Source: Ectocarpus siliculosus (lineage: Eukaryota > Sar > Phaeophyceae > Ectocarpales > Ectocarpaceae). From it: a stretch of 64,000 nt of DNA. Of this stretch, positions 9,901 through 58,203 are shown in pieces. Position 1 is the first letter of the stretch; each line of letters opens with the position of its first letter. The notes beneath the pieces were generated by a model, which saw nothing but the letters and a program-made list of their open reading frames with translations, was not told where the DNA came from and ran no database searches. The position numbers were made by a program, and so were the translations under genes. The stretch is taken from NCBI GenBank assembly GCA_000310025.1, contig FN648512.1:62001-126000 (forward strand), given 5' to 3'.

Positions 9901-12900
9901 GAGGCGATGAGGGCGGCAGGTTCCGGGAGTAGCAAGGAGAGAATCCTCTGCTTTCACTGCAAGAAGCGGTTCGCTTCGGTGTCATGCACCGAGTGTCGAA
10001 GTGGCTACTGCCACAGGTTAGTCCGTGGGTGGGTGGCTGGATAGGCGACTGGCTTGATGGAGGGGTCAGTCGATAGTTGTCACTCAAGATATCTCGCGCT
10101 ATGCTTCTTACAGGATTCATCTTGTTGTTACGCTTGTTTTAATCGTGGAAACGATTTCTTGCCTCACGACGACAATGTGCAGTGTATGTCAGGATGTGCT
10201 CTGAAGCAAATTTATCCTTGAACAACAGGTACGCAAAGTAGAGGGGGAACCAAATGAGAACGGTTCCAATAGTGGTACTCTCCGCTGGACGTCCTCTGAA
10301 GCTCCATTATCCTTGAATACAGAGGGTGGGCCAAAGGAACACTGTTCCGAACGTGCTTGGACGTACGTACAGGTGTTCCACGCATGTCCACTCTCAACCT
10401 GGCCGTCTTGGCCACGACTTGGTACCGTTCCAACGCCCGGAGAAGACAACCAACGCTTCGGAGAGAGGGTTGGACGGCGGCGGGAAAAGGGGTGATGCCA
10501 AGAAGGCCAAGCGGGCAGCCAGGAGCCTGCCCGACTGCGCCAGGCGGGCAGAGAGTTGCCTCAAGAGCATGGCACTCTTGAAGCACAAAGTAAGTCTCAG
10601 TGTCGATATTTGCGAGACAATGTGGATATTCGCCTTCCCGTGCCTGCTGACCGATCGTTCAGATGCAACTCGAAGCTCTTACGAAATTCGAATGAACTCC
10701 CCCCTCGCCTCCGTAGCTTCGCGCTTTATTGATCCCTCACTCCGCGCAAAGGGGATGATCGCACCACGTTGTGCTAAATTGGTCAAGCACCTTCGAGGTA
10801 GTTATACAGTGCATATAACTGTCTCTGGAGGTGAAAGCACCAGAAAAAAAATAACTCATACGCAGCTGCCATCCGTACGCAAGGAAGTAAGCACAAGATG
10901 CTGAATACCCTTCGCAGGATGCAGCGCACCCTTCACGCGACTCGCCGAGTACCTGACGGTGCTTCGCGCTTGGTGATGTGAGAGCCTGGTCCGGTGAAAT
11001 CCCGGCGTGCTCCGTCCCGGCTTTGTAGTCATGCGAGGTCAATGGTCGAACGAATACGGCATGCGCGGCTATGAGTGCACACCCACCTCCGTAGCTTCGT
11101 TTTCCGGTATGATTCACCGTGGCTATCGGCGAGGCGTTTCCAGGCGTTACACACGTTTTGTTCGCTGCTTCCTTTTGGGCGGTCCAGGAAATGATCAGGG
11201 CTGACGAGAACAGGGTTAAGATGAAGGCCAAAGACCGCAAAGAGATGGAAGAGGCCCAAGAGAGAGACAGAAGGGCACAGGAGGAGTACAATCGTGCCTC
11301 CACCGAGGAAAAAAACGCCGCAACAACTGTAAGCACCGGTTGAGGTTTGTCGCAGCGATCCCCAAGTGACGATGGAACTTTGACCTTGCCCTTTGGGCAG
11401 CGACACAGCATTTTTGGGAATACACAAGCAACGATGAATTTCGACGATACCCTGCGGGCAGCGATGCAGGAGAGTGCGGTATGGCACGCCGGTAGTTGTT
11501 TATGTTGCGTGAGCCAACATGTTATCATAGTTGTCAATGTTGAAATATAGTGGCCGCCTCGGTACGTGCCGAACAAGGCGCAGAAAACGTCAGCGACAGC
11601 ACGCCAATAGCAGCAGCTCTCCCGTTTCCACCAACCCCTAGTCTTTCCCTTCCGGAAAATCTTTTCAACCCTTTCGGAATACCCAACGTCCACCGGGCAG
11701 GTCCAAAACGCTTGCAAGGGCCTCATGAGAAAGCTTCTGCTCAAACGGGAATCTGATATACGCCGGCGCGCTCAAGAAGAAGACTCCAAGCTCAAGCTCA
11801 AGGTGAGGCACGCTGGATTCATTAGCTAAAGCGGTGGCTCGCCACGACGCGCAGGGAGGGAGGGAGGGAGTTAGAGAGAGAGGGGGGGAGGACACAGAGA
11901 GAGAACGTAACGAGCCCCGACATCGACCGATCACATGCTATTTCCAGGCAACCCAACGTCCAACACCGGTTGGGTTTACTATCAGGTGTCCTGTAGGGCC
12001 TCGCTTTTGCCAAAACCAGCATGTACCGATTTCCTCGATTCAAGTCGCGAAAGAAGAACCGTTCTACTCTCGCGTTTCGCTCTGTACATGTACGTATTTG
12101 TAGATACTGAACGCGAGCAACCACCTGGCGTTGTTACTCCTCTGCAGGAGACGGTAACACGAGTCCAAGCGCTGTACAGGGGCTTCTCCGTCCGACACTT
12201 TCTGAAAGAGTCGGCGGCCAGTGTTGGCGAGACGAACGCGGGCTTGGCGGCAGTACTCCCCGAGGGTGTACGCCCAATTCTCCCCGGAATGTCGCGAGAC
12301 AAGACGGCGGCGGCGGCGAGGGCGAGGCGAGACTGTACCTTCCGGCGACGGTGGGAAAGGGAAGCGGCCATATCGAAAATGATACACCTCGAAGAGGAGT
12401 CGACCAGGTACGGTACAAGAATATCACTTCGTCTGTCGGGCTACATGTAGTCTCCAACTTTGAGAAGCTCGACCGCCGCGAAGTGTTCCTAGGCCCGCCC
12501 CGTACACGTTTTGATCGTGCTTGCCTTCTCTTCGGCTGGGCCACAGGACGTTTGCGTCGGACGTCCGGTGGGCGGTCGAGAACCACACAATGCTGCGAGT
12601 GAAGAGCAACTTGCTCAAGACCCGACGAGGGGCCGCGAGGTCAGCGTGGACCCGTCTTCAGGCAAGAACAGGAAGACACGAGCCCCCTATCGTTGCTAGT
12701 CTAGTTTTGAGCTCGGCGTTGGTAACATAGAATGTCCTTGGGCCGTCTTTACGACAGATACGCAAGAAAATCCTCTTGCCACGCAGTCGTGGTCCGAATC
12801 AAGCTAGTAGAACTTCACCGCAGTGAATGGAAGACCATTGAAGTACGACCCTGTGAGCCAGGATGACCTTCAGAAGATAACAGTAGTATTCTACTTCCGC

Positions 12901-28800: not shown

Positions 28801-31800
28801 GATACCTACACAACATTTTGATGCTAGGAGACACGCATCCATGAGGGGTCCAAGTAGACCAATATCAATTTTAATCCGGAATCACACATTGTACAAATAA
28901 CGATCAGAGAGCCTTGGATGTAGTCGCAACGACGAGCCAAACGCACCAACCAACACGTCCGTAACCTGTTCGTATGACTGATCTTCTCGCCTACTGGCTG
29001 CTCCTAGGTGTCTACGTACCAGTCGATTTACACTGGTTTCCCATTTTTCGGACCGATTGGTTCGTGGGAAATTAGTTGTTTATGTTCGCGTCAACTGGTT
29101 TCCATTGGAATGAGCTTTTCCCTGCATTGGTTTGTGTACGTGTGGTTTTGATTCACCGCTCTCATTTCTTGTGCAGGGACAATCGGCGTCGGGGCGTTCT
29201 TCGAGTACTTCGAGTGGCCTCGAAACGCTTTCGCCAACCATCTTTTCAGCTTCATGGAAGCAACAGACGAGGATGGCCGAGTGGATTTTGGTGATTTTGT
29301 GAAGGTAATGTGTGTGGATAAGTTTTCGTCCTACTTGTTCTGGCGACAGGCTCCCCATTTTTTGTGGTGGGACGTGTACTGCACTCTTCAGTGTTGTGGA
29401 ATACTACACTTTTCAGTGTATTTTTCGTACAACTACAACCATCCAGGGTCACACAGGACGGTAAACACCGGGGTTATTTTTCTTACCGTTTTAATTTTCG
29501 TGCCCCACCTCCCCCCCGTAGCGCAACGATGTTTGCCATCGGGGTTGGGTTTTCGTCGCTTGGCAACGACGTTGTAAAACAGGCCGCCCCCCCTGGTGTT
29601 TGCCATCGGGGTTGGGTTTTCGCCGCTTGGCAGCGATGTTGTAAAACAAGCCGATCACTTCGTGAGCTCGGCAACCAGGCTACCGCTTTTTTTTTCGTCT
29701 TTGTTTTCTTTTTTTGCGGTAACCATGAATGGTGGTCGAGAAGATTATGTTGTGCGGGGTCGAGAAGCCTCACTCCGCGCAAATGGGATAATCGCACGTT
29801 GTGTTAAATTGGTCAAGCACCCTCGAGGCAGTTACACAGCGCTTCCAACTGTCTCCGGAAGTGAAACCACCAGAAAATAAATTAAGTCATACGCAGCTGT
29901 CATCCGTAAGCAAGGAAGTAAGCACAAGATGCCGAACACCCTCAGCAGGATGCAGCGCACCCCTCATGCGACTCGCTGAATACCTCACGGCGCTTCGCGC
30001 TTGGTGATGTGAGAGCCCGGTCCGGTGAGAACCCAGCGTGCTCCGTCCCGGCTTTGTAGGGATGCGAGGTCAATGGTCAAACGACTACGGCATGCACGAC
30101 TATGAGTACACCCCCCCCCCCCCCCCCCCCCCTCGGAGCTGTCACAATNNNNNNNNNNNNNNNNNNNNNNNNNNNNNNNNNNNNNNNNNNNNNNNNNNNN
30201 NNNNNNNNNNNNNNNNNNNNNNNNNNNNNNNNNNNNNNNNNNNNNNNNTTAAAATTGTTAAAGAACCTTAGGGGAAGTTAAAAAGGGTTTTAAATTTTTT
30301 CGGGAGGGGAAACTCCGGGAAATTAATTTAATTTTTGGGGAGTTTTTTTTTTTAAGAAAGGAATTAAGAAAAAGATGGGAAAAACTTTAGGAGGGTTGGG
30401 GGGAACCCTTATTGGGATTGGGTGATTATTTAAGGGGGTTTTGGGTTTGGGGATGGGAGAGCCGGGTTGGGTGAAAACCAAGGGGGTTCTTTCCGGGTTT
30501 TTTGGGGATGGGGGGTAAAGGTTAAAAGGATTGGGGAATGCAGGATTTGGGTTAAACCCCCCCCCCCCCCCCCCCCACCTCCCTCCTGCTGTGCGTGCTG
30601 ATTTTTTTTTCGCGAGAAAGTCCAGTCGTCCCTTTCCCTCGTAAACGGTGCTAGCGTCGAAGTTTGGTACTCACGAGAGCTTTTCAGCTGTTGTTCGCTT
30701 TCACCCGCAAATTTGAAATGTTTTCATCTCAGGGGGACTCGAAGTCACGACTTTACGATTAGCGTTTTCGAGGTTACCACTAGACCAACGGGGCGACCGG
30801 TGCATCGATTGCATCATATGTGGACAGCATTGAAGGCCACGCTCAATGTGCAATCGTTTCGCATGTCAACCGCATACAGCCCGTGCTACACACGTTAAGG
30901 GCACGTGAATAGTCGTCATGAAGTTTTCTTGCTGATCATGACCGCCCTACATAACGATGCTACATACTACATACCGGAGAAAAAACATCTCTTCAACAAC
31001 GGCCCTCGTGCATGCACATTTAATAATCACGAAGGTGTTACTGGATAGAGCGCTACACTCTTCTACTTCCCACTAGCAAGCCAATCCCCCCTCGCCTCTC
31101 GTCCCGTCTCCTCGTGCGTGTTGGTATTTTCATACGTGCGATGAACTCGCGTGGTCTTGCTTGTGGAACGACACTTCAAACGTCTCATCGGCGGGGAATC
31201 GGTCTGTTCGGCAACCAACATCGGCGTCCCCGACCTCCTCTCAGCTAGTTTGTTCCTACTGTATGTTCGGAAAGGCGGATCTTTTGAGATACGCCTACAC
31301 GGTCTACGATCAGGGGAAAGGGTGAGGTGGCCATGACGGTTATGTCTTATCGAGCACACACGGAACCTGCCCGCAATTCGTGACACAATTTCTTCAGCAG
31401 TGCCAACACGTATTTCGATTGGTATTTTGTTGATGAGGAGATGTGTTTCGTGGGAGAATTCGGTGGGGCTCCAAGCATGACGAAGCCTGTGGAATGTTTT
31501 CAGGTCCATGGCGACTATTCCTTTTCCTGCAGAATCCGATACTATCAACAGCACAACCATCCTGTAACTTGACGTGTGAAACAACGACCGTCGCTCTCTG
31601 CCAAAACCAGGATATCATGTTTTGCATGCAATATACTGTGGCGACATACCTCGAATATCCACGGTGCCCCCTGGCTGAACGACACGGTACTTTGAGATGA
31701 ACCTAGTTGGTTCGTTGGTGATTCATGCACAACCAAGTTGACAAACGCTTGTTGAGTTACCAGCCATATTGGTTTTTCCCCTTCAAGCAGTCACGATCTT

Positions 31801-41060: not shown

Positions 41061-41259
41061 TCGTTTGCAGACATGGAAAATCGACACCCCACCGAAGGAT
41101 TTATGCTGCCCGGGGGCAAGTGCCCGCGCCGTATTTCGTGTCTGGCTGCCTTCGCTCTGACTGAAGATGCGTCCCCGAACTTGGCTCTCTTGATGGTGTT
41201 TTACCCAAACGATATCATCCTTCCTGACCCTGCCTTTTTTATGTTGCGGTGGTAAACAG

Positions 41260-42592
41260 TTGGAGGGGCTGCGCCTGGAGAGATTCGAAAGCAGATCGCG
41301 CCCACATGGACTAAAACCAAGGCGGGGGTTTGACCAAGAGGAGTCTTCTTTTTTGTCATTGACGGTATGGCCGCCTTCTCTGCGACAACTTGAGTTTGGG
41401 GATGGGTTCACCGTGCGGATCGCCACGCTCAAATGTCCGCCCTCCCTACAACAGCTTTCGATTGGGCATTGGTGCGACGAGCATATTGCCAGGGTCAGTT
41501 GGACGATGTCTCTGCAGCAGGCATCATTCAGTGGAAACTTCGATCAGACCATCGCCGAAGTCATGTGGCCGGCCTCCCTGCAGCAGCTTTCGTTCGGGGA
41601 AAGGTTCAATCAGCCCATCGCCAAAGTCGTATGGCCAGCGTCCCTGCAGAAACTTTCGTTTGGAGACTCGTTCAACTGGCCCATCGCCGGAGTCGTGTGG
41701 CCGGTCTCCCTGGAGCAGCTTTCTTTCGGAGATTGGTTCAACCAGCCCATCGCCGGTGTCGTATGGCCGGCCTCACTTCGGCAGCTCTCGTTTGGGAATA
41801 GGTTCAACGAGCCTATCGCCCTAGTAGTGTGGCCGGTCTATCTGCAGGAGCTTTCGTTCGGAGATTCTTTCAATGAGCGCATCGCCGAAGTCTTGTGGCC
41901 GGCCTCATTAAGGTAGCTGTCGCTCGGCCGGTGTTTTGACCAGCCTATTTCGGGGGTCATGTGGCCGACCTCCTTGCAGCAGCTTTCCTTTGGCTGGTCG
42001 TTTCGACAGTCCATCGTTGGAGTAGTTTGGCCAGCCTCACTGCGGCAGCTATCGTTCGGGTTCTACTTCGACCAACCTCTCGCCGAAGTCGAATGGCCGG
42101 CCTCCCTTCGGCAACTTTCGTTCGGTTTGTGTTTCGACCAGCCCATCGCCACAGTCGTATGGCCGGCCTCCCTGCAGCAGCTGTCGTTCGGAGATAGATT
42201 CAACCAGCCCATCGCCGAAGTCGTATGGCCAGCTTCCCTGCAGCAGCTTTCGTTCGGGGATCAGTTCGAATACCCTCTCGCTGAAGTCGTATGGCCGGCC
42301 TCCCTGCAACGCCTGTCGTTTGGGGACGACTTCAACCAGCCCATCGCTGAAGTTTTATGGTCGGCTTCCTTGCGGCAGCTTTCGTTCGGGGATTGGTTCG
42401 ACTACCCTATCGTCGTCGTCCCTGCAACGCCTGTCGTTTCGAAACGACTTTAACCAGCCCATCACCAGTGTGGTGTGGCCAAGCTCCTTGCGGCAGCTTT
42501 CGTTTGGGAAACGGTTTTCCCAGCGTACAGATGGAGTCGTGTGGCCGGTCTCCCTTCAAACAGTGACGCGAATAGGGGTTTCTCTGCTGTAA
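41260..42592 (+). pseudogene. FNIP-repeat gene copy 1, 5'-truncated pseudogene
   Basis: About 18 tandem 22-residue units of the form WPASLQQLSFGDxFNQPIAEVV. They resemble FNIP repeats, an LRR-like repeat best known from Dictyostelium. Compared with copies 2 and 3 it lacks the N-terminal exon and about 110 residues of the second exon, beginning at LEGLRLERFES. An in-frame TAG at 41914-41916 replaces the CAG of copy 2. A deletion near 42409-42420 shifts the frame, after which FNQPITSVVWPSSLRQL continues in another frame to 42592. It has about three more units than copy 2. It cannot make the full protein, though the first base follows a plausible splice acceptor. Confidence 0.82.
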
Positions 42593-42902
42593 TGGCGCAA
42601 TCATCGTGTTTTCTCTCGGGCTTCGCTATAATAGTTGTGAAAACGTGGAGAGGCTACGGATCAAGCGCATTGTTCCTGACCATGAGTAACCACACGAAGG
42701 TTCGCCAAGCTACGGTTGCACCTGCGCCCGAAGTGATTTTGTAGCATGATCGAATGCGTCTGAGTACGAATACAATGCCTTGACGGGTGTAATTTTTTCG
42801 GGGGGTACATCGGTGCTGAGAGGGAGGGCATATTCTCACTTCTAACTGGTAATATAGCTTTCACTTGTGAACATCCTGGTTTTCAAGAAGTAGAACGACC
42901 TT
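41260..42902 (+). repeat. Left arm of a large inverted repeat
   Basis: It is homologous in reverse complement to 44602-46058. Similarity covers the FNIP units and about 300 bp of noncoding sequence downstream, including a shared block ACCACACGAAGGTT near 42691 and a block GAACATCCTGGTTTTCAAGA near 42869. The arms differ in length mainly by FNIP units. Confidence 0.85.
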
Positions 42903-44601
42903 TTCATTAGATTGATAGTCTACACCTTTGGCGACTATGGGACCCTACGCAACTCTGCGTTTTCAGTAGCACGACACGGTCGTCAAATTGTTAGTGAAAG
43001 TTAAGCCAATATTCTGTGACATTCCAAAGGAAAATGGTACGGGTCGATGAGGAGAGTGAGGTTCGTCCGCGGATACACGGTCTTGACGTGTCCCCTCATT
43101 CATTCCTGCGCACGACATTCATTGGCATGGAAAACGGAAGAAAGCGCTACTTCACGGTACGTCATAACTCGCAACATGTACCCCGCAAGCAACACCGTTG
43201 GTCTCCCACGAGCCACGGCTCTTCAGCAACACCAGGACAGTACAAGCGTTCGAAGGCTCATAGAGAAAAGAGGAACACGAAAGACTTTCTATCGTACTCT
43301 TGATGCAGGAGCAGCGAGGCAGCAGAATGAGAACTCCGTGAGACCTTTCTTTTTGGAAGACCCCAGAAAACCAAACCAAGACAACCCAACCAACACGCCA
43401 CAACAAGAACTCAAATACAACCGTAGATCTGGGAGATGTTCCGAATTCTTCCGTGCACAATAAACTACTGGTACAGTTTATTCGGTCTTCGACAACAAAC
43501 TTTCATTTTTTTTTGTGTCTCCTGTCGTAAGGGCCGCTCCCCCAAAAATCTCCCCTGGCAGAGTCCAATCTGGCCAATCTTGCGTTCATATCTCCTCCCC
43601 ATAAGAACACGGCGTTCAAGTCGATCACAGTACCGTAGGTAGGCAGTGCTTGCGCCCCTGAGCCTTGTTCTCTGACACAAATATGTCACGCGCTTGCTCT
43701 GCCTCACGTCGAAGTTCTGTGCAACTTTCCTCTTGCCCATCGCACCCTTACGCCGTTGCGGCCGTGTTTTTGACCAACGCCATCCACCAATGTATGGCTC
43801 AGGATTCAGGACACGATTGTCTCATGAGCTCGCTATTCCTATGGTTCCCTGTTATACAGAAGCGGTTTGCTGCTTGTCGTCCGTGTCCGGCAGCGTCGGT
43901 CAACCGGCAAGATTGAGAAGTTGGTCGTCCTGCTGCGGACCTCTGGTAGAATACACTTGGCCTCGCGTGTGTGCGAGTGTCTTAATTACATTCAACAGTC
44001 TTAGCATCGACCACGCTTAACCGGCTGACCAATGTAACGGCGTCCGTCTCAGTGCGACTGAAAAAAAACGTGACAGTTAACGCCTTTAGGCGATGTTCTG
44101 CGGACTTCAAGGCAGGAGCAACGGCGGCAACTGAGGAAGAGAAAAATACACGTGTCTGCCCCGAGGCTGGTACTTTTTACTTGTCGTGGTTGTTTTGGTT
44201 CTCCCCGGGTATCGTTGGCTCCCATCATACGCCCTCATTGTGCGACCACCACTCTCTCCGCTTGTTCTCTACCACTCACACCTTTGGGTTGATATTTGTT
44301 TCGCCGGCTTCCTTGTAGCGTGGACGATCGGCTAGGTCGGAAATATTACTCTATGCCAACCTCTCTTCCTTCTTCCTGTTTCCGTTCGTCCATAATCTCC
44401 CACTTCTTCCTCTTTCTCATCCAAGCCAGCGTCATGCTGGTTTCCGCCAGCAGCATAACGCTGTCTTGGTCAACCTCCTCGTTCGATGTCCTCTCCTCGT
44501 TCATTTGCAACCAACTAATGCGTGAGTGTTGTCCCATATTTTCTGGTCAAATGCGAACAACCGTCAAAGACAAGGTGAATCCCTCTGAGATGATGAGGGA
44601 A
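42903..44601. other. Spacer between inverted repeat arms
   Basis: About 1.7 kb of mostly noncoding-looking DNA with one plausible exon at 43034-43156 (listed separately). It has no relation to the FNIP repeats and no transposase frame was recognised. Confidence 0.5.
43034..43156 (+). CDS. Possible isolated exon, unknown product
   Basis: A 41-codon frame, ATG to a consensus gtacgt donor at 43157, reads MVRVDEESEVRPRIHG and ends MENGRKRYFT. Its mixed charge and donor look like real coding sequence. No partner exon was found. It could be the first exon of a small gene, or a 3' exon of the oxygenase gene separated from it by the FNIP pseudogene. Function is unknown. Confidence 0.3.
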
Positions 44602-46058
44602 GTCGTTCTCCTTCTTGAAAAGCCAGGATGCTCAGAAGTAAAATTTGTATCATCGAGAATACTCCCTCCCTCTCAGCCCAGATGTATCCCCCCCCCCCTC
44701 GACAAAAATTGCACCCGTCAAGCTTTTGCATTCCTATTCAAGCGCTTTCGATGAGACACTCGAGGCGCAGGTGCAACGGTATCTTGGGGAACCTTCGTGT
44801 GGTTCCTCATGGTCAGGGACAATGCGTTCGATCTCTAGCTATTCCCTGTCACCACGTTTTTCAATAATAGCGACCCCACTCTCGAGAAAAAACAACGATA
44901 CTTGTGCGACTACAACAGAGAAACCCCAATACGCGTCACCGTTTGAAGGGAGACCGGCCACATGACTTCATCTGTACGCTGGGAAAACCGTTTCCCAAAC
45001 GAAAGCTGCCGCAAGGAGCTTGGCCACACCACACTGGTGATGGGCTGGTTGAAGTCGTCCCCAAACGACAGGCGTTGCAAAGAAGATGGCCATACTACTT
45101 CTGTAATAGGATAGTCGAACCAATCCCCGAACGAAAGCTGCTGCAAGGAAGCCGGCCATACGACTTCGGCGATGGGCTGATGGAATCTATCTCCGAACGA
45201 CAGCTGCTGCAGGGAGGCCGGCCATACGACTGTGGCGATGGGCTGGTTGAAACACAAACCGAACGAAAGTTGCCGAAGGGAGGCCGGCCATTCGACTTCG
45301 GCGATAGGTTGGTCGAAGTAGAACCCGAACGATAGCTGCCGCAGTGAGGCTGGCCACACTACTCCAACGATGGACTGTCGAAACGACCAGCCAAAGGAAA
45401 GCTGCTGCAAGGAGGTCGGCCACATGACCCCCGAAATAGGCTGGTCAAAACACCGGCCGAGCGACAGCTGCCTTAATGAGGCCGGCCACACTACTAGGGC
45501 GATAGGCTCGTTGAACCTATTCCCAAACGAGAGCTGCCGAAGTGAGGCCGGCCATACGACACCGGCGATGGGCTGGTTGAACCAATCTCCGAAAGAAAGC
45601 TGCTCCAGGGAGACCGGCCACACGATTCCGGTGATGGGCCAGTTGAACGAGTCTCCAAACGAAAGTTTCTGCAGGGACGCTGGCCATACGACTTTGGCGA
45701 TGGATTGATTGAACCTTTCCCCGAACGAAAGCTGCTGCAGGGAGGCCGGCCACATGACTTCGGTGATGGGCTGATCGAAGTTTCCACTGAATGATACCTG
45801 CTGCAGAGACATCGGCCAACCGACCCTGGCAATATGCTCGTCGCACCAATGCCCAATCGAAAGCTGTTGTAGGGAGGGCGGACATTTGAGCGTGGCGATC
45901 CGCACGGTGAACCCATCCCCAAACTCAAGTTGTCGCAGAGAAGGCGGCCATACCATCGATGACAAAAAAGAAGACTCCTCTTGGTCAAACACCAGCCTTG
46001 GCTTTGGCCGACGTGGGCGCGATCCGCTCTTGAACCTCTCCAGACGCAGTACTTCCAA
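44602..46058 (-). repeat. Right arm of the large inverted repeat
   Basis: Reverse-complement partner of 41260-42902, with most of FNIP copy 2 inside it. Homology to the left arm ends near 46058, where copy 1 is truncated. The copy 2 gene continues beyond that point and there matches copy 3 instead. Confidence 0.85.
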
Positions 46059-47709
46059 ATGCTTCCACTGCCTATCGCCTGCATTTAGAACAAAATCATT
46101 CATCTGGCCATAAACCCACGTCAAACGGAGCGCCAACACGACCGGCACACGGCTCGAGATGCAAACCTCAGGATCCCACAAGCTGTGCGGCGTCTGATCA
46201 TCGATACGCACGTGCCAGGTCGGGACACTTCGGCACGCGGAGCAAAACGCCAAGCACACACATTGCAGCTGCAGGGTAGACTTGTACCAGTGCCCCCCCC
46301 TCCCGCCGTAAGCTTGGTGCAAGGTGATGGCGAAGGCGTCAAGAAACCGAGACCCGCCTGAACTTCGTCGACGAACCAGACGGAAAAGCGTGGACAAAAC
46401 GAAAGTAGTATAACAACGGTTTAAAGGAGACCGGTTCCTTCACCAGACGAAATACTGCCTCAAACGTTACAACACCACCTCATCCCATGGAGCTTGCCCA
46501 AATCAGATGTGAATTCACGTTGCCCCAAGAGCAAGCAAAAGCACTACCACGCCAGGCAACGAAATGCAAAAAGGAGGCAAAAAACATGCAGCCATGTCGT
46601 GGTACGACAAAGCCTCGTCCCGAACTCTACAATGCTAGCCAGTCCTGCATATGGTGCTGGAGAAGAAGCACAAAGCTTGGATCTACGCAAGCGCAGTTCC
46701 ACCATGCTCGGGTCAAACGTTGAGGCGCTCCTCGTTGACTCATTCCCGTTCATTTACAACGTAAGCTCGATGTGCGTAACGAATGTTGACCAGGACAATG
46801 ATGTACAATAAAAGCGTGCAATCTCCTGCACCACAGCGTGTCTCAGGTGTACAACAGCTTCCTAAATATTACTATTTAGAAGTAGTCACAACTCGAAGGA
46901 AGTAAAGAGGTTCTGAATCTTGCAGGAAGGCTACTTTTTGAGCATACATGCCAAAAGATTGAGGATCTATGTCGTTTTCCTGAGGGTTCGTTTTCCTGAG
47001 AGAGTGGTGGCTAACCACAAGGTATACACGAAACTGTGGACGTACTCTACATCAGGGTGGGAGAGCGACAACCATGTCCAGCAGAGACAATTGCTTGCTG
47101 ATCGACACAAGAGAGGGGCAATACACCCACTACGCAGCAACGTGGGCGTGAGAAAGGACATCGTTGGCAATCGGGTGCAACTCCAAGAAATCCACCAATC
47201 AGGAGGATATATTTTCTGCTACCCCCAAGATTCTCTCGTGTATTGCGTTCACCAAGGCCTCAGAGCTCCTCCTGTTTCTCGTCAACAAGATCATGGCTCT
47301 CACAAACGTCGGTCGCGCACAAATACTAACTAACAGCTTGCCAAGGAATCACGGGAAGGCAATCCTAACACATTCTCGAGGTGATTTCTACAGTCGAACG
47401 TACCTGGATGCGGTGATCGCTCGCCATTGTTGGCTTTGTCGTTGTCGATTACGCCACCACCGCTGCTATCGCTGGGAGGCTTTCCACCGCTACCCTTGGA
47501 CACCAGGGAAGAGGAGCGGTAAGGTGGCGAGCCCCAGCAATCCCCGCAGTCGCTGGGTGAAGGACCGGGAGGCGAACGTTCCCTCGAAGCTGGTGGGTCT
47601 GGCGAGGTTGGGGCGATCACTCTGGACGTATCTAGCGTGACCATTGCTCTAGCGTCACTTTCACGGTCTCGGTTTCTGGCGTTCCCTGGCTGTTGAAGGA
47701 CGAGCTCAT
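44910..47709 (-). pseudogene. FNIP-repeat gene copy 2: intact repeat exon, frameshifted first exon
   Basis: The large exon (46357 down to 44910) is open throughout. It encodes an N-terminal region (LDAFAITLHQAY, WYKSTLQLQ, RIDDQTPHSLWD, ALRLTWVYGQMNDF) followed by about 15 FNIP-type units and a TAA stop. It has no initiating ATG, and its first bases follow a TTCAG acceptor as in copy 3. The matching first exon (47709 down to 47404) begins MSSSFNSQGTPETET, homologous to copy 3, but carries a net length change and an in-frame TAG. The Ser/Pro-rich SPDPPASRERSPPGPSPSDC part continues in another frame. Either this copy is recently disabled or it uses a different first exon. The repeat domain itself is still under no visible decay. 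Confidence 0.7.
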
Positions 47710-48968
47710 CTGGGACAGGGGCAATAACCAAAAGGGCACACATGTGAATGCGCACCGTCTGAACCAGGCTACCGCACGGAGGGACAAGGAGAAGGTTGTG
47801 AACAACACGCCTAGCGGACGCACGGAAATGTTTCGTCGTGGTACAGCATAACAACTGACACGGTGCTGCGTAATGCTGTGCTAAAGAAGGCATCAAATGA
47901 AAAACCGTTCGAACTTGTGCCGCAAGGCTTCATGGAAACACGAAGCCAAAGACTGCAGGTCCAGACTTCGCTTGATGTTCTGCGACTATCCTCTCACAGG
48001 GATTCCTTCCGGTTCGCGTGTGTGGCCGGTTTCGAAAGCTGCCATGCACCGAGAGGTATGAATGTTGCCCAATGATTCATGTCCGTACAGCGTTTCCGTG
48101 TCCATTGATTAGCGAAGCGCTCGTATTCAAAAGACACCACTTTGCTGTAACGAAGGTTTCCAACAATACGCTGGAAAACCCACCCCTTCACTGCCGACCC
48201 AGGCTGGCCACGAAATATTCTCTTCTGACCTCTTGTCGAATGTGTGTGTGTGTGGATGTTCGCCCCACAACATCTGGCGCCAGTTCACGTTCAATTCGGT
48301 TCATACGTTTGACGTCCCAGCCAGCCGGGGTCACCCAGAGGAATGCCACACCGGAGCTCCTTTTCATTTTTTTGCTCCACCTTTCCTTCTGCTGCACTTG
48401 CCTTACGGTAGTGATATGCTGAAAAGGGTTCAGCCGCCCCTTCCCGACGTCGACCGTAGAGTCGAACAGTTTTGTCTAAGCTCACAGAATTTTCCGATTT
48501 CCGCTGCAAATTGCGGCAAAGAAAACTCTCCGCACAAAAACCCGAACCCACAACCAGGTACTAAATAGGTTGTGAGGTTATTCTCTAGACCAACCAGGGA
48601 ACCGGTCAGTGTATTGTTGTTGTTGCTTTTGTCTTCGCACAAAAAACCGTTCCATGTATGGACATAATCGAGGCGAGAGTTCCATATGTAAACCAACCCT
48701 ACCTGGGAGCGTTCTGAGTGGTACCCCAACGGCGTCCCTTCCTCTCAATGTCGAGAAAATAATTACTAGATGAGGGCACTACCGTATTTTATCACGAGCT
48801 TCGGGAGATAAGCGCACCACGCCTGTGCCGAGGTGTTGCATCCACCAGAGCTTGACCTTGTCTGCAGCTCCCCAAAACAGGCAACGTACGTGTAGTGCGA
48901 GCTTGAGCTGCACACTGTGTTTAGCACAACAGATTGAAGTCAAGAACGGCCGTCGAGCTAGAGTGCGA

Positions 48969-49001
48969 GCGAGAGAGAGAGAACGAGAGAGAGAGAAGAG
49001 A
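48969..49001. repeat. (GA)n microsatellite
   Basis: An interrupted GA dinucleotide tract in intergenic DNA. Confidence 0.9.
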
Positions 49002-49844
49002 GTTTCCGCTGAGGCACGCTTCTCACGAGGTCGTAGCTGTACGGCTCTCGGCCCATGCTTGTTTTCGGAGGGACTCCAATGCTCATGAACCCCGCCAGCG
49101 GTCGTTTTGAGTCGACATTCGTTCACGCTTCACCTACAGTAGTCCGTGATGATTCAGTCTCCATCGAGACAAGAGGGTATCGGTAGGAAGAGCTGTCCTC
49201 ACCGCGATTCTCTCGCCGCCGGGGAGGGTACAGTCGCGTCAGGGCTACGTGCAGAAAGGGCAGACCGGTACGAGCCTTTTTGAAAACCTTGGCAGTCTCT
49301 TGGTGGTGGAGGAATCGAGCTTGGGATGTAGTCGAGGGTATGTGTGCACCACCACGGCGGCGCGGTACGCAGAAATGGTGTCGTCTGGAATGGTTGGACT
49401 TGCTCACCGGCGATCGCCGCGAGGCGGGTTTTCGAGGCAGTCTGAAAATTGGAGGCATGCTACAGTATACACCTACGCACAATATTTAGGTTTACCTATA
49501 TCCCCCCTCCGGGTTGCGGGCAGTTCGTATGGACCTATCTCTTAGACTATCACACCCTAGAATACTCGGAAACCCGCGTCCGCACTCATTAATGAATAGA
49601 AACTCTGTGACCAGCTCACGTTGGGTGGTGAGCAAGAAGAATTGCCTCTCTTTCCCATGTTCTTGAAGTTGGGCAAAAAAAAACAAGTTTGGGAGACGGA
49701 CCCTCTTCCCCGATATCCGACGTTAGTAAAGCGTGTACTGTCTAACTCCAGGCTTGAAGCCCGTGCGCCCTCTACGGTAGCGTCAACCAGCGTGGGCCCG
49801 ACTTGGGTCGTTGCATGCTGCACGTCTCCACCAACAAAGAGGGT

Positions 49845-50745
49845 GTACTTTCACCTCTTCCCTTTTCTCGGACACACCGTAGCAGGCTGGGACCTTCGAA
49901 TGTGGCCGACCGTACACACACCTCCATTCCCGCATCTTACCTGTGTTGGTGCAGTGAGACTGTCGTCCAAGCAATGGGCGTGAGCAACTCGTCCCCATGG
50001 AGGCCCGAAGTGTCGGAAGAGAATTGTCGCGGGAGTAACAAGTTTGGGAGTAAAGCTTTTGTACGATATTCCGCCGCGGGTTGACCTACGAGGACCCTCC
50101 AGTGCAGCTACAGCAGTGGTGCGACGGGAAACTTTGAGAAAGATGGCGGCTGACGGGCAGCGATAGAAGGGAGGTGCTCTGTGCCGGGAAGAGTAAACGT
50201 GTACACTCTACACTAGAGGTCTTGCCGCCCGCGATTGTCCCGCGAACTTGTCCTAGCGTACCCTGTTTCTGGGAAGAGGCGTTGCTGCTTGTCATCCACG
50301 CCCACCGGGGTCGGCCAATCAAAGAGGTTGACGATGCTCATCCCTGCCCCGGACCCCGGACCTCTCGTAGTGTAGAGTACCATCGCAAACACGTTTGCTC
50401 TTCCCGGCACAGAGCGCTTGTCCCCTCTATCGCTGCCCGTCAGCCGCCACCTCTTCCAAAGTTTCCCGTCGCACCACAGCTAGCTGCTAGCACTGGAGAG
50501 GGTTCCTCGTGGGTCAGCCGGCGGCGGAATATCGCAAGCTTTCCAAGGTTTCGGCCAAAATTCTCTTCCGACTTTTTGGGCCGCGATGGGGACGGGGACG
50601 AGTTGCTCACGCCCATCGTTTGCTTGGGCAGCGGTCTCACTACACAAATACCGGTAAGATTCGGGAGTGAGGGTGCGTGCGGTCGCCACTTTCGATATGA
50701 TTCATGTCTGCTACGTGCAAGAGGACAAGGGTAGACGAAGTGCAA
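49845..50745. repeat. Hairpin-type inverted repeat, arms about 370-385 bp
   Basis: Left arm about 49845-50215, right arm about 50360-50745, spacer about 145 bp. The reverse complement of the right arm repeats landmarks of the left in order: GTAGCAG, CCCG-ATCTTACC, AGTGAGAC, ATGGGCGTGAGCAACTCGTC, GGTGCGACGGGAAACTTT, GGCGGCTGACGGGCAGCGAT and CTCTGTGCCGGGAAGAG. The arms differ by scattered substitutions and small indels. Both carry a frame starting MGVSNSS, which matches an N-myristoylation start, but the downstream frames are not conserved. Confidence 0.85.
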
Positions 50746-51799
50746 AACGCGTGCCTACACATGTTGGTGGTGGCGTGGGGTGTGGAGACGTCAGCGTTCA
50801 GCAAATCCCCGGCGGCTGTAGATACACATTTCGATTGATTCTACAGCAGTGGAGGGCATGAGCTTCAAGAAGTCTTAAAGAGGTGAATTAGGCAGCTTGG
50901 TGAGGATCTCCTTCGCCAAAATAGGATGTCGGAAAGGGCTCTCTCTTGCGAATTGTTTGGGTAACTCAACAGCTTCAGCAGCGTAAACTTCAAGCACGGT
51001 GGGGGGAGAATAATGAACTAACTCAAGTTTTCTCGCCAACGGGTGCTGACACTGGATTCATGCGTACCAAGTCTAGTGGATACAGCGGTGGTCTACAGCA
51101 AGCGTAGGTCCAGCGAACTGTCCTAAACACCATTTTTTTTTGGGGGGGGGGGGACAACAGTGAGTGGGTGACATGACAGCATTGGGTACATAACGCGAGA
51201 GTCCAACGAATCATAGCCCCATTCTGCTGCCTGGACAAGATGGCCAGGGCCCATGCACAGCATGATCATCAACGTAAACAATTGTTGAACGTCTCCAGGC
51301 CCGACACCAAGGCGGTGCACAAGGCCGCACCAGGTGGCCATTATTTTATATATTTTCAAGAGGAATATATAGACAAGAGTGGGTACTTGACAAAAACATC
51401 CTTTGCGGAGTCCACTCGTGAAAGGGCCGAACCTCTCAGTCTCGTTCCGATACCAGGACAGCATGTGCAAGGCCCATGCACACCATCGACTAACTTTGAC
51501 ATTTTAACGGAATGCCGGGGACGTCTTCAATCTGCACACCGCCTCGGCGCACATGGCCTCAACATGTGGCCCTAGTTGGGTCCGAAATTCCGGTTGGTAT
51601 ACCCACCGAAATCTACCAAATATTGTACGTGGAAGTATGTTTTTCATCTACCCACCTTTGTCTATATTGTGAATCACTTTTTTTGTCCGAAGTGCACCCA
51701 CTCATTGTCCGTTTTCATTCGGAAACCGATCTACATGTGTATCCACACGAGTTGCCCCTCATTTTCCAAACAAATGGGAGCAGTATTATTATTTCTCCT

Positions 51800-51874
51800 C
51801 AGAGAGAGAGAATCAACCCACAAGTTGCTACTACCAACAGTAGCCTTTAAGAGAAGCACTAGACCACGGGGCAA
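51800..51874 (-). repeat. Diverged tRNA-derived repeat
   Basis: The minus strand reads GCCCCGTGGTCTAGTG at the A-box position, as in the element at 30733-30800. The B-box is degraded (GGGTTGATTC). It is probably an old SINE fragment. Confidence 0.35.
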
Positions 51875-52351
51875 CTATCATAGTTTGTGTTTTGTTGAAA
51901 GCGCTGGTTGGCCCCGGTGTAACGCCACCGGCAGGATCTTGAATATCACCCGAGCAATATCACCACGTTCTCCAGTTCGTGGCTTTCACCATGACACCAA
52001 ACATGCGAAAATCGAATGGTTATTGATCGCGGTATTCGTGGAGGACATTATTTTAGTTCCCCGTGAAGCAGGTTGTAGACAGGTATCTTCAGCAGCACCC
52101 GGGTTGATGGCATACTGCCCTGCTGCGACTGTCTCCTCCCTTGGGTGAGGATCATAGTGAGCATTTCTCTTCCCACAAGCGGGCCCTTTTCGTCTCGATT
52201 AACACCGCAACCAATGAGCTAAGGAGAGTGAATAAGTCATGGCGATACAAGCGGCCTGGAGGAGGACATCGGCAGTGGGGTCTCTCCCGCCAATATGGGC
52301 GAAGCGGAAGCTGCACAGCTGTGACCTTGTGGGAAGCGGGGCCAACGAAAC

Positions 52352-52360
52352 CTCTCTCTC

Positions 52361-52408
<48 letters not shown>
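52352..52408. repeat. (CT)n microsatellite
   Basis: A nearly pure CT tract of about 57 bp with one interrupting GT, in intergenic DNA. Confidence 0.95.
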
Positions 52409-52410
<2 letters not shown>

Positions 52411-53260
52411 GCTCGCGCGCCCTCAACGTCTAAAGCCGGGTGTGCTTCACACCGACCGGTCGACAGCTCAAACTCGAGCGTTGTGGCCTATTTCGAGGAA
52501 GTCCAGGCAATATCAAAATTCTTGTAGATACGTATGGCACTTCCAACAATGGCCTCTGCATGCACTCTTTCCTCCTGAACCTCTTGGTGACGTACGAAGA
52601 TTTAAACGGAGCTACGTGACGTGGCCCGCATCTAGAAGTTTGGTCTCGGTCTTGAGGGGGAAATAATCTTTTGAGTACCAATCATAACTTCACCAGGTAG
52701 AGTTTTTAGCATAGAGGAGGTCGCCCCGAATTTGTCATACACACACTCGAAGGCAATAGTAAACTATTTTTCGTGGCGAACACAGGCCGGCGGTGAGAGG
52801 ATTTTATGGGACGTTGCAAAAGTTGTTGCGACATATAGCGGCGTCTTTGAAACTGAGTGATTTGTTCAACCAATAGTCACGCTGCCTGCACAGTACGGTG
52901 GATGAGATTTTTTTTCCGGATCATCTCGGTGCGTTAAGGGATACGAAACCAACCATAGGCCCGATGCCGAATGTATCCCCCTGTGGGAAGGTGATCGCAG
53001 AAGAAAAATCGGAACCAGAACTGTGATCTTTGTCTTCGGGTTGCCATGAAGATTGGCAGCACCAGTGCACGTGCTTTAGTCTTGATTCCAACTTTGACAC
53101 AGCCGTATACAGCATAGTGCAAGTTGTTTCTCCCTCGTTTTCCTTGTGTCCCCTGGGCATGTTATTCCACGTTTTCCTTGTGCCCGCCGACCGGTAGCCC
53201 GGTTCAGGAACACGCGCTGACACGAGTACCCTTTTTAATTTCCCCCCGCCGCACCAGACG

Positions 53261-56200
53261 ATGAGCTCGCCCGCCCACAGGCAGAGGACGCGAGAAACGG
53301 AGATAGTGGAGGTGGCGCTAGTGAAACGGCCGCGATTGTCCTCTAGAGTATTGGGTACATCCTCGCCAGACCCACCGGTTTCGAGGGAAGGTTCGCCTTC
53401 CGGTCCTTCGCCCAGCGACTGTGGGTATTGCTGGGGCCTGCCACCCATCCTCTCCTTTGCACGGGCGTCCAAGGGCAGCGGTGGAAAATCTCCCAGCGGC
53501 AGCAGCGGTGGTAGTGCCATCGACAACGATAGTGGCGACAATGGCGAGCGATCACCACATCCAGGTACGTTCGAGTGTAGAAATCGCCTCGAGAATACGT
53601 TAGAACGCCTTCCCGTGATTCCTTTTGGCACGCTGTTATTTTGGTGCACGATTGATTGACGCCTGTCAGAGCCATGATCCTGGTGGCGAGATACAGGACG
53701 AACTCTGAGGCCTTAGTGGCCGCAAGACACAAGATAATCTTGGGGGTGACATAAGTATATCCACCTGACCGTTTGTTCACTGCAGTTTCACCGCATTGCC
53801 AACGACGTCCTTTACTACGCTCACGTTGCTGCGTGGTGGGCGTGTTGCCCCCTGCATGTGTCCATCAGCAAGCAATTGTCCCTCCTGAGCATGGCAACAG
53901 CTCGTCCCACCGTCATCTGTACTACATCAGACAAAATACGTACCAAGTGTACTTTGTCGGTGCGACCGTGGCTGATGCCGATCTATCTCTTACTCTCACT
54001 CTCACTTTCTCGTAGGTCGCGAACTTTCGAAATATTCCTTCTTCGGCTCTCTCTTTCTCCAATCACGCGCCCCCACCCCAAGTGCGCCCCCACCCCATAG
54101 GAGGGCGATGAAGCTGCAGGAAGGCAATCAAAATATTGTCAATTGTTTGGTATGCTCAACCCAGTCACGCTGGAAGGGTCAGATTATTTTTTGCTTCCTT
54201 CTTCGTGACCGACAAGAAACGGTTCGAAAACCTTGTGGTACACATCCCCCGAGACGCCTTACGATGCATTCAGCAGAACTGTTGGAAGGCTGTTGCACAT
54301 CATACTCCTGGTGCAGAGTCGTTGTACACATCGATGCTTGAGTTGTAGATGATCGGGAACGAGTCAACGACGAACGTCGACGATACCTATGGATTTCTTC
54401 TAGCTGTAGGTATTCAAGCTCTATTGTTCTTCTCAAGGATACCAACGACAAGCAGGATCCGATAGCGTGGAATGCGGAACGGCACTTCCTTGTTCCGCTG
54501 CATGACTCACCTTTGCATGCCATTGCTGAGCGTGGTGGTGTTGTTTTTCTAGTGATGCGACATGGAATCACCTCTGGCCTGGGCGGGCTCCAGCCATTCA
54601 TCGGTTTGTTGTTTTCGGGTGCCCCGAGATATCGTTTCTCCCCCATTGTTCGATCGTTTGTCGGGCCTGTGAGCACTTACATCCGTGAGACTTCCTTAAG
54701 ATTTTTACGTTTTCGTTCTGAGGTTGGCTGTGCTCTTCCAGTGAAACCGTGTTACACTCTAGTTGTGTGCACCGTTGAGCTTGGGAAATGTCGCAACTGG
54801 TAGATGCCAGCCAGCTGTGCGGCTGACCCTGCTGCTTGCATATGTCTTCATCTTGTGCGACCCCTTGAAACTACGCTCTATCAAATCCTCTCCGGAGGGA
54901 TCCCGTGTAGTTGTTTGAACTTGCGTCTTGTTTCACCGCCTTCGCTGCGCGTTTCGCCGATGAATTTCAGGCGTGTCTCTGTGTCTTGACGCTATCGCCA
55001 TCGCCTTGAACCAAGCTTACCGAGGGGAGGGGGAGTACTGGTACAAATCCTCGCTGCAGCTTCAACTTGCGTGCTTGGCGTTCTGCGGCGCATGCCAAAG
55101 TGTCCCGGCCTGGCACTTGCGTATCGATGATCAGACGCCGGAAAGCTTGTGGGATCCGAACGTTCGCATCTCGAGCCGTGTGCCGGCCGTGTTGGCGCTC
55201 CGTTTGACTTGGGTGTACGGCCGGATGAATGATTTTGTTCTGGATGCAGGCGATAGGCAGTGGAAGTGTTTAGAGGTGCTGCGTCTGGACAGGTTCAAGA
55301 GCAGATCGTGCCCAGATCGACCGAAGCCAAGGCCGGTGTTTGACCAAGAGGAGTCTTCTTTTTTGTCATCGACGGTATGGCCGCCTTCTCTGCGACAACT
55401 TGAGTTTGGGGATGGGTTCACCGTACGGATCGCCGTGTTCAAATGTCCGCCCTCCCTGCAACAGCTTCCGATTGGGCATTGGTGCGACGAGCGTATTGCC
55501 TGTCCCGGTTGGCCGATGTCGTCGCAGAAGATATCATTCAGTGGACTCTTCGATCAGCCCATCACCCGGGTCGTATGGCCAACCTCGTTGCGGGAGCTTT
55601 CCTTTGGGAATTTGTTCGGACAACCCATCGTCGAAGTGGTATGGCCATCTTCCCTTCAGCGCCTATCTTTCGGGCGCAGATTTGACCAACCTATCGCCGA
55701 AGTCGCATGGCCGGCATCTCTCCAGCACCTTCCGTTCGGTTTGTGTTTCAACGAGGACATTGCCAGCGTCGCTTGCCTGCCTGCCTTGGAGCAGCTTTCG
55801 TTCGGAGATTGGCTCAACCGGCCCATTGCCGATGTCGTATGGCCGGCCGCCCTGCAGCACCTTTCGTTCGGGCAAAGGTTCAATCAGCCCATCACCGGGG
55901 TCGTGTGGCCAGCTTCCCTGCAGGAGCTTTCATTCGGAGATTCATTCGACTACCCTTTCGCCGAGGTCGTGTGGCCGGCTGCCTTGCAGAAGCTGTCGTT
56001 CGGGAATTGGTTCAACTGGCCCATTACCGATGTCGTACGGCCGGCCTCACTTCGGCAGCTTTCCTTCGGGAAACTCTTTAACCGGCCCATTGCCGGAGTC
56101 GTATGGCCGGCTTCCCTGCAGCAGCTTTCGTTCGGGGACTCATTCAACCAACCCATCAGCAGCGTGGAGTGGCCATCTTCCCTCCAACACCTTTCGCTCG

Positions 56201-56313
56201 GGGATGGGTTCAACTGGCCTATTGCTGGAGTCGTTAAAGCAGCTGTCGTTCGGGAAATGTTTTTCCCAGCGCAAGGCGGAGTGGCAGGCGTTTCTTCGAA
56301 GGGTGATGCGTAG
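53261..56313 (+). CDS. FNIP-repeat protein, copy 3 (about 549 aa)
   Basis: Exon 1 (53261-53564) starts MSSPAHRQRTRETE and encodes a Ser/Pro/Gly-rich, probably disordered segment ending at a GTACGT donor. Exon 2 starts at 54971 after a TTCAG acceptor. The phases join to give one continuous frame into LDAIAIALNQAY, WYKSSLQLQ, RIDDQTPESLWD, LRLTWVYGRMNDF and then 13 FNIP-type units (core W-P-x-S-L-x-x-L-x-F-G-x-x-F-N-x-P-I). Near 56230 the frame shifts relative to the other copies. The stop at 56311-56313 follows a novel tail, while a 14th unit, SLKQLSFGKCFSQRK, continues in another frame to 56335. FNIP/LRR-like solenoids usually bind proteins. No signal peptide or membrane segment is visible, so it is probably intracellular. 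Further small exons in the 1.4-kb intron cannot be excluded. Confidence 0.75.
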
Positions 56314-58203
56314 GGGAATTTCTCCGTTACAGTAGCCTGAATTATTATTTGTTCTCTGTAGGGTCCGGTTGATATGGTTCGGGTTGTTACAGCGAATATG
56401 GCGAGGGATCAACCGCAGTGTTTCTGACTACCGCATGAGGACCAGACGCGAAATTCGCGAGCTAGCGCTGTATCTGCGACTCGAGTGTATGACGTGGTCG
56501 TATGCGCAACAGTAGGAGCGCAATAGCCGTGACAAAAATGAATGTCATCGCCGTGTACGCGCAATTCCCGATGATGTTATACACCGGTTTTTGTGCGACC
56601 ATTAAAGTTCTAGAAAAAATAATATTTTAAAGTTTTTTGGCACATGCTTTTATTCGGGAATCTTGTTGAAAAACACTTTTCCTGCACGCCCACTAGGGGG
56701 CGAAGGGGCTGGTGGAAGGTGGAGGCGTGGTCATTTGGTGGTCTACAACCTGGCGCTGTGCCTTCCATCGAAGCTAGGAGGATGTCAATGATATTCACGT
56801 TGACAGAAATTGTTGCGTAGACTCTAGAGACATAGTTTATTGTCAAATGTATTCTACACAGCAGCGGCCATCGCAAGCAATTCCAACTTGTCGTTCAAGT
56901 ACTCTGACTTGGCCGTTCACCTCTGGCGTGGGTCGTGCGCGTGTGTGTGGCGGGAGAGGGTCTACGTGTGTGGTAAGGGCAAGTGATAGACGTGGGTTGG
57001 CGGAAGCCTCCCCGCGAAACGTTTCTTCGGCATTTTTTTCGCGAGAAAACATTATACAGGTTTGCTCTCCAGATCGCGCCATTATTGTCGAAAACAAAAG
57101 TTTCCAACTTTTCTCGCAACTTTATGCTCCCACACAAAAGCGGTGTCTTCTCAGAATATTTACTTCGGAGCAGCCTTTTTTCAACGAGGAGGACGACCAC
57201 CTTCTTTCAGAGAGATGTATCGTGGGTTTGAGAGTTGTCCGCATTTTGGCCACGCGTTCATCACAACATATTGTCATACCACCGGTGCCGCGGGACCTTC
57301 CTCCTGCTTGCCTTGTGGCCGCCTAGTTTCGCCTGGCGAACGTTTTCCCGCATCTTTCTGGCGTACAAAATGCACCCAACATTCATCTCTCATTTCCGCC
57401 CGCTTACTTTTCTCGTTTCCCCCGCTCACTTTCACGAGGACTTCACCTGCGTCCTAAAACAATGCAACTACGCGACTTCTACCCCACCTTGCCTTGCGTG
57501 ACACGCTCGTCCTTCTTCTCCTTCCGGTAGAGAAGCGACGCCGCACGCGACAGGTTTCCCCGCGAAATGACTCGACTATGCACGCGTACTTGCGTGGGCG
57601 TGTGTTTGAAGCGCAACAAGATGGAATTCTAGGTGGTGCTGAGGTGTCTGGCTTTCTGTACAGGGAGTGGGCGTGCGCGGCGAAAGGGGTACTATGGCGG
57701 CATGCCGAGTGTGGCGGAGAGATGCTTCAGAGACGCATTAAAATTGAAAACGACTCACACGAGTCATGTCACAAGCCATATGCGCTAAATTGAAAAATTC
57801 TCCATCCAGATCCTCCTACGGGGTAAGTTTGTTATTTCCTCTTCGTCCAAGCCTGGCTCCTTGTGTTTCCCCCAGCGTACTCTACATTCGGCAGTTTATT
57901 ACGCCAGCTAGTACCCCAACAACAGTGAAAACGGACCAAAACAACGTCAAACATCATGGCTGCTGTTGCTGCTGCTGCTGCTGCATGGCCGCTTCTCAAG
58001 CGACATTGATAGGTTTGAAGTCGACGTGTGTTCCGCACCAGAATATTCCACCTCTCTTGCGCTTCGCGAAACCACCGCCTTCAACTCAACCGCGCATCGG
58101 TTGACATCCACGCAAGACCAAACGTCTCCATTCCTCACCCCTCCCACTCCCCCTGTTATTCCGTTAAACTCTCCTCTGGCTTCCTCCGTCGAGTCACCGG
58201 CAT
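56314..58203. other. Convergent intergenic region
   Basis: It lies between the 3' ends of FNIP copy 3 (+) and the TRM10 gene (-). No exon is supported. A short CTG/TGC repeat sits at 57961-57984. Both 3' UTRs should lie here. Confidence 0.5.

Follow-up and report, generated by a model that had tools for sequence, protein, structure and literature searches.

The 64-kb window analysed here (the whole stretch of 64,000 nucleotides from Ectocarpus siliculosus) contains three neighbouring arrays built of FNIP units, each unit being 66 bp, or 22 residues, long. A six-frame unit scan reproduced the counts of 18, 15 and 14 units given in a preliminary description of this DNA, and across the 64-kb window it found no further runs of FNIP units:

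41365-42538, plus strand: array A (copy 1), 18 FNIP units
44964-45953, minus strand: array B (copy 2), 15 FNIP units
55375-56284, plus strand: array C (copy 3), 14 FNIP units

All four array pieces searched against Pfam matched PF05725, with E-values from 1e-37 to 7.5e-59 and bit scores of 128 to 196 against a cut-off of 21. The consensus of the units is LxxLxFGxxFNQPIxxVxWP, in which L, L, F, G, F, P, I, V, W and P each occur in 28-33 of the 33 interior units counted; the remaining 14 of the 47 units (units 1-3 of each copy, A17, A18, B15, C14 and the stop-bearing A09) were excluded. Both L positions and the G are invariant (33/33), W and P are present in 31 units, the first F in 31 and the second F in 32. 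The W-P, L, F and G positions are indeed fixed or nearly so, as had been proposed, but the N of F-N, placed in the same class, is found in only 20 of the 33 units, and Q in 19. The locus is a small cluster of FNIP/FGxxFN LRR genes of the W-P subclass. Elsewhere in the window there is a separate LRR ORF of 656 codons (4770-6737, plus strand; PF24758, E=2e-10) and a pair of dispersed direct repeats, each some 350 bp long (10735-11084 and 29768-30115, 88% identical). An inverted repeat pair, 79% identical, lies between copies B and C (49896-50202 and 50389-50695) and may be a foldback element. The window yielded no tRNA genes and no Rfam families at the gathering score.

Only copy B holds every unit in one frame. 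For copies B and C we could derive two-exon models:

47404-47644, minus strand: copy B, predicted exon 1, whose start codon lies downstream of the ATG aligned with that of copy C and which ends at the donor CCAG/GTACGT
44910-46357, minus strand: copy B, exon 2 with predicted start (acceptor TTCAG at 46358), comprising an N-terminal region, 15 units and a C-terminal tail
53261-53564, plus strand: copy C, exon 1 predicted from the B/C comparison
54971-56313, plus strand: copy C, exon 2 with predicted start, comprising, by its reading frames, the N-terminal region and 13 in-frame units (55375-56232)
56219-56284, plus strand: final unit of copy C, out of frame, starting 52 bp rather than 66 bp after the beginning of the preceding unit

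The predicted intron is common to both copies, with the donor CCAG/GTACGT and the acceptor TTCAG at matching places. The model of copy C has 548 codons and that of copy B 562 codons if translation starts at 47644. For copy B the downstream ATG was adopted because the ATG aligned with that of copy C runs into a stop after 25 codons. In copy C, a frameshift replaces the last unit and the tail. Homology between B and C upstream of the arrays continues beyond predicted exon 1 with an identity of about 77% (47072-47828 and 53139-53894). Over exon 1 and the N-terminal region together, the pooled pN/pS between B and C is 0.61 (p=0.031, one test, unadjusted), suggesting that both copies were probably under some constraint. 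Taken separately, exon 1 and the N-terminal region give 0.57 and 0.64, and for the N-terminal region alone the test of constraint gives p=0.084.

Searches of Pfam, PDB sequences, PHROGs and NCBIfam returned nothing convincing for the N-terminal region. FNIP proteins of mimiviruses are annotated with an F-box at their N-terminus. Part of the N-terminal region here bears what we take to be a loose resemblance to F-boxes; there was no Pfam match to an F-box at E-values up to 5, and the structure models are unreliable there. Pfam matches to ROC-COR were likewise absent from the ORFs, N-terminal regions and predicted exon 1 of copies B and C, and no signalling domain was recognised in the two copies by searches of the same four resources.

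Copy A differs from B and C at its 5' end and within its reading frame. Its main features are as follows:

41249-42592, plus strand: copy A, a putative 5'-truncated FNIP gene relic with 18 units, a stop and a frameshift (reading frames, self-comparison, Pfam)
41827-41892, plus strand: unit A08, without a counterpart in copy B (a gap of exactly 66 bp in the A/B alignment)
42223-42472, plus strand: units A14-A17, opposite the two units B13 and B14 (unit pairing)

The likeness of copy A to copy B begins at about 41249, so that this copy lacks exon 1 as well as some 96 codons of exon 2, and self-comparison of the window revealed no match for an upstream part of this copy. An in-frame TAG is present at 41914-41916 in unit A09, where copy B has CAG, and the frame shifts at about 42407, between units 16 and 17. 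Judged by its reading frames alone, copy A would therefore be broken. The base change that gives the TAG also creates a possible splice donor, AAG/GTAGCT (41901-41930).

The extra unit reported for copy 1 is real, although it is A08 at 41827-41892 rather than 41842-41907, and so is the two-unit difference described near 42240-42470, where A14-A15 (42223-42354) and A16-A17 (42355-42472) stand opposite B13-B14. The closest unit to A08 within the three arrays is 82% identical; A14 and A16 are 80% identical, A15 and A17 77%, and all four are 83% identical to their B counterparts. Since none of the extra units is more than 83% like any unit in the arrays, they are not recent duplications, and the identity of 77-80% rules out a recent two-unit duplication in copy 1. 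The similarity of two-unit blocks in this copy is itself weak (p=0.069 against shuffled unit order, best start A13). We also rejected the idea that B13-B14 arose from A14-A17 by a simple deletion, the best single-breakpoint mosaic matching only 116 of 132 positions. As no outgroup was found, gain and loss of the extra units of copy A are not polarised.

The frameshifts of copies A and C have much in common. At both shifted junctions (about 42407 in A and 56219 in C) the unit spans 52 bp rather than the usual 66, and the unit end GTC joins straight onto position 15 of the next unit. The two shifts thus appear, from the sequences at the junctions, to be losses of the same 14-bp junction segment at different units, with the exact edges of the loss in A left open by a run of TCG repeats. 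In 28 of the 41 other junctions (all except A17/A18), TC is found at both ends of the 14-bp segment, and such a direct repeat could prompt deletions of this size.

The comparison of arrays A and B revealed a step in identity. The unit pairs A01-A07/B01-B07 and A09-A13/B08-B12 are 92-100% identical, and A18/B15 are 98% identical. The tract that stands out is the following:

41365-42222, plus strand: putative conversion tract of twelve units, with 15 differences to copy B in 792 positions (A/B alignment)

Over these twelve units A and B differ at 1.9% of positions, compared to 16.5% and 21% in the flanks (Fisher p=4e-26 for the twelve units against the two flanks). Specifically, there are 19 differences in 115 positions of the 5' cap, 16/111 in A14-A15, 6/140 in the end of A17, A18 and the tail, and 61/289 beyond the stop. 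Synonymous sites show the same step, with 3 differences at 207 sites in 13 units versus 7 at 25 in the cap (p=7e-6). Likeness at synonymous sites is not expected from selection on the protein, and the step is therefore best read as a tract of conversion or crossover. We infer gene conversion as the mechanism, a double crossover being a reading that would be equivalent. The changes between A and B within 13 units, with the stop excluded, fit neutrality (13 nonsynonymous and 3 synonymous, ratio 1.39, p=0.77), and all A/B indels are multiples of 66 bp except for the 14-bp loss. The identity step, the TAG, the frameshifts and the missing 5' part of copy 1 are absent from the preliminary description and are new here.

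Copy C presents a different picture. Its first three units are 94, 89 and 85% identical to those of copy B (pN/pS 1.17), and further inside the array the correspondence is lost. A04-A17 and B04-B14 are collinear (p=0.0005), whereas the order of C04-C13 shows no agreement with either B04-B14 (p=0.46) or A04-A17 (p=0.74; 2000 shuffles in each case). When the best match of each interior unit of C was chosen from 24 units, the pooled pS was 0.34 (0.10 to 0.47 by unit), higher than for the N-terminal region (0.19, p=0.014) or for units 1-3 (0.095). The one exception among the ten interior units is C08, for which pS to A04 is 0.10, as low as in the common ends. Both the lost order and the raised pS imply that at least one copy has had its interior replaced or rearranged. 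There was no sign of homogenisation within array C, identity within C being 0.672 against 0.69 to A and B. The same applies to recent duplication of single units, neighbouring units resembling each other no more than units in shuffled order do (p 0.80-0.95). Thus, with neither the units within C nor adjacent units showing extra likeness, recent slippage is not responsible. Suggestive within C is a block of three units, C07-09/C10-12, with p=0.006 in one of nine tests.

Variation among the units is concentrated at a few positions. Entropy over the 33 units, near-identical A/B pairs included, peaks at positions 9, 16, 8 and 12 (2.83, 2.50, 2.48 and 1.81 bits). The preliminary description had proposed a test for diversifying selection at the variable positions. 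In 25 non-redundant interior units, pN/pS pooled at positions 8, 9, 12 and 16 is 0.79 (0.64-1.09; 60 bootstrap resamples) and thus not above 1, although with pS at 0.68, near saturation, this is a weak test for positive selection. Neither do the A/B changes, fitting neutrality, speak for it. At the solenoid core positions of the same 25 units, pN/pS is 0.08.

Structural modeling placed the encoded protein among known folds. For copy B exon 2, the AlphaFold model (3 sequences) has a mean pLDDT of 69.6; by ten-residue block, values are 32-61 over the first 130 residues, 51-88 in the first units and 77-94 over residues 221-450, and then lower at the end. The N-terminal region modelled alone reached a mean pLDDT of only 32.9. 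In a Foldseek search of the PDB, the copy B model matched 6nyr (Crov588, E=6e-19) and 7zal (Crov539, E=4e-16, TMt 0.77), with internalins, Toll-like receptors and Roco ranking far behind. A sequence search gave the same order: 6nyr (E=8e-145) and 7zal (E=8e-55), then, as a weak match, the LRR part of a bacterial Roco protein, 5il7 (E=1e-6). Among viral models, FNIP proteins of CroV and Gaeavirus came first in Foldseek, some of them annotated with an F-box. The encoded protein is thus predicted to be a curved LRR solenoid like Crov539 and Crov588, and it probably binds other proteins via its concave side. According to the available passages of PMC9525666, these two proteins of Cafeteria roenbergensis virus have the same 22-residue unit, solenoid fold and strong variability at positions 8 and 9 as here, and the Crov539 type has a pattern resembling LxxLxFGxxFNQPIxxVxWP. 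Unlike Crov539 and Crov588, the genes of this locus have a predicted intron, an unmatched N-terminal region, variable positions 12 and 16 and divergent terminal units.

Searches for closer relatives were less productive. No relatives were found among phage records. In the viral_contigs set the copy B ORF gave no pattern match, and a 10-row alignment of two-unit blocks gave 32 matches there and 28 pattern matches in genome_contigs, none of which was confirmed in either set. A degenerate DNA pattern for FGxxFNQPI occurred at 39 loci of viral_contigs, one of which had one unit motif and none of which had two or more; the same count finds 19 in the window as a control. With a unit motif at one locus in 39, we take the pattern matches as chance.

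The family itself has been described before. Saccharina japonica is listed with 121 FNIP proteins (PMC4421812), and one brown alga with 104 FGxxFN sequences, mostly W-P (PMC9525666); in the available parts of these sources, the brown-algal sequences belong to the same Pfam family as the locus described here and, in the second source, have the same W-P sub-motif. FGxxFN LRR families are described as reaching large sizes in brown algae, slime moulds and giant viruses, with a role that is poorly known, and their variability has been proposed to serve recognition of many ligands (PMC9525666, in the passages available). In Dictyostelium chimeras, one FNIP protein is mentioned among genes co-expressed with cadA (PMC4118049, in the part accessible). 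The view that the locus is the best candidate for an undescribed recognition system thus does not hold as put, since both the brown-algal families and the recognition idea had already been published (PMC9525666, PMC4421812, as far as their passages go). The passages available from the two papers count proteins, without treating the turnover of units between neighbours. Among the titles and passages listed in our literature search, outside which most subscription journals fall, none dealt with unit turnover in algal FNIP arrays.

Taken together, we think it probable that this W-P FNIP/FGxxFN LRR cluster owes the differences between its copies mostly to birth-and-death turnover within a tandem-repeat family, since its units are prone to recombination, loss, exchange and conversion. 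The 66-bp units would make the locus recombination-prone, so that units may be lost or exchanged. Gene conversion may copy long stretches of an array between inverted neighbours, and the short direct repeat at the unit junctions may twice have led to a frame-breaking 14-bp loss. The extra units of copy A might then reflect loss elsewhere rather than gain.

On the other hand, the cluster could be a modular recognition system in which recombination and selection diversify an FNIP-LRR binding surface and broken neighbours donate units. Several observations are in line with this idea: variability is greatest at positions 8, 9, 12 and 16, the interior of copy C is unlike that of copy B although their ends are common, and a broken copy and an open one have undergone conversion-like exchange. 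Parallels are known as well. In the available part of PMC11378527, the LRR units of brown-algal ROCO proteins also vary in number and order and have a candidate recognition role, and their exon shuffling is one parallel alongside a virophage FNIP gene, which in the accessible text of PMC10945749 is the one significant difference between two near-identical relatives (MV20; EV1/EV2). Neither parallel is exact. Each LRR of the ROCO proteins is described as its own 72-bp exon accompanied by ROC-COR domains (PMC11378527, same passages), whereas the units of copy B are 66 bp long and lie in one continuous frame; the virophage comparison concerns isolates (PMC10945749, same text), and ours neighbouring paralogues in one cellular genome. 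Moreover, the pN/pS at the variable positions does not exceed 1, weak as that test is, the extra units lie in the broken copy, and no signalling domain has been recognised. Hence, of the proposed modular surface diversified by recombination, the modular units and the recombining arrays stand, while the location of the extra units in a broken copy counts against the remainder, and we regard such a system as unlikely. With the copy carrying the extra units broken, selection unproven and the family already published, the data point to ordinary turnover and not to a demonstrated new recognition system. A related and somewhat more doubtful idea is that array ends are fixed while middle units are renewed from partly broken copies, which would amount to a pseudogene-fed diversification of the binding surface without exon shuffling.

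It might also be argued that the arrays are decaying relics of a giant-virus insertion, with all copies degenerating. Indeed, giant-virus FNIP proteins supply both the nearest experimental structures and the top-ranking viral models, and an FNIP-repeat pseudogene has been noted inside a viral fragment in Ectocarpus (PMC2373305, from the passage available). However, the intron predicted in both B and C has consensus-like donor and acceptor sites, these two copies show some constraint, none of the 14 pieces searched, which cover a minority of the ORFs in the window, matches a viral Pfam family above the cut-off, and GC content is 0.51-0.55 across 40 to 58 kb, in a window that spans 0.47-0.58 in 2-kb steps; a viral origin of this kind seems to us improbable. 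Least plausible is an assembly or sequencing error in which collapsed or misjoined repeats produced both the frameshifts and the differences in units: assembling tandem repeats is difficult and the window does contain a scaffold gap, a single run of 100 N (30149-30248), but that run is more than 10 kb from the arrays, the extra units, at most 83% like any other, are not duplicated reads, the shifts of A and C lie at different units, and the flanks clearly differ.

Turnover of the tandem-repeat family therefore remains our preferred reading. Differences in array length alone are no evidence for selection. The locus offers a worked example of how such arrays change, with near-identical arrays set in diverged flanks and ends that are kept, and it also exemplifies the loss of interior order and the repeated occurrence of a frame-breaking deletion. 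With strain sequences, the recognition idea proposed for this family becomes testable here.
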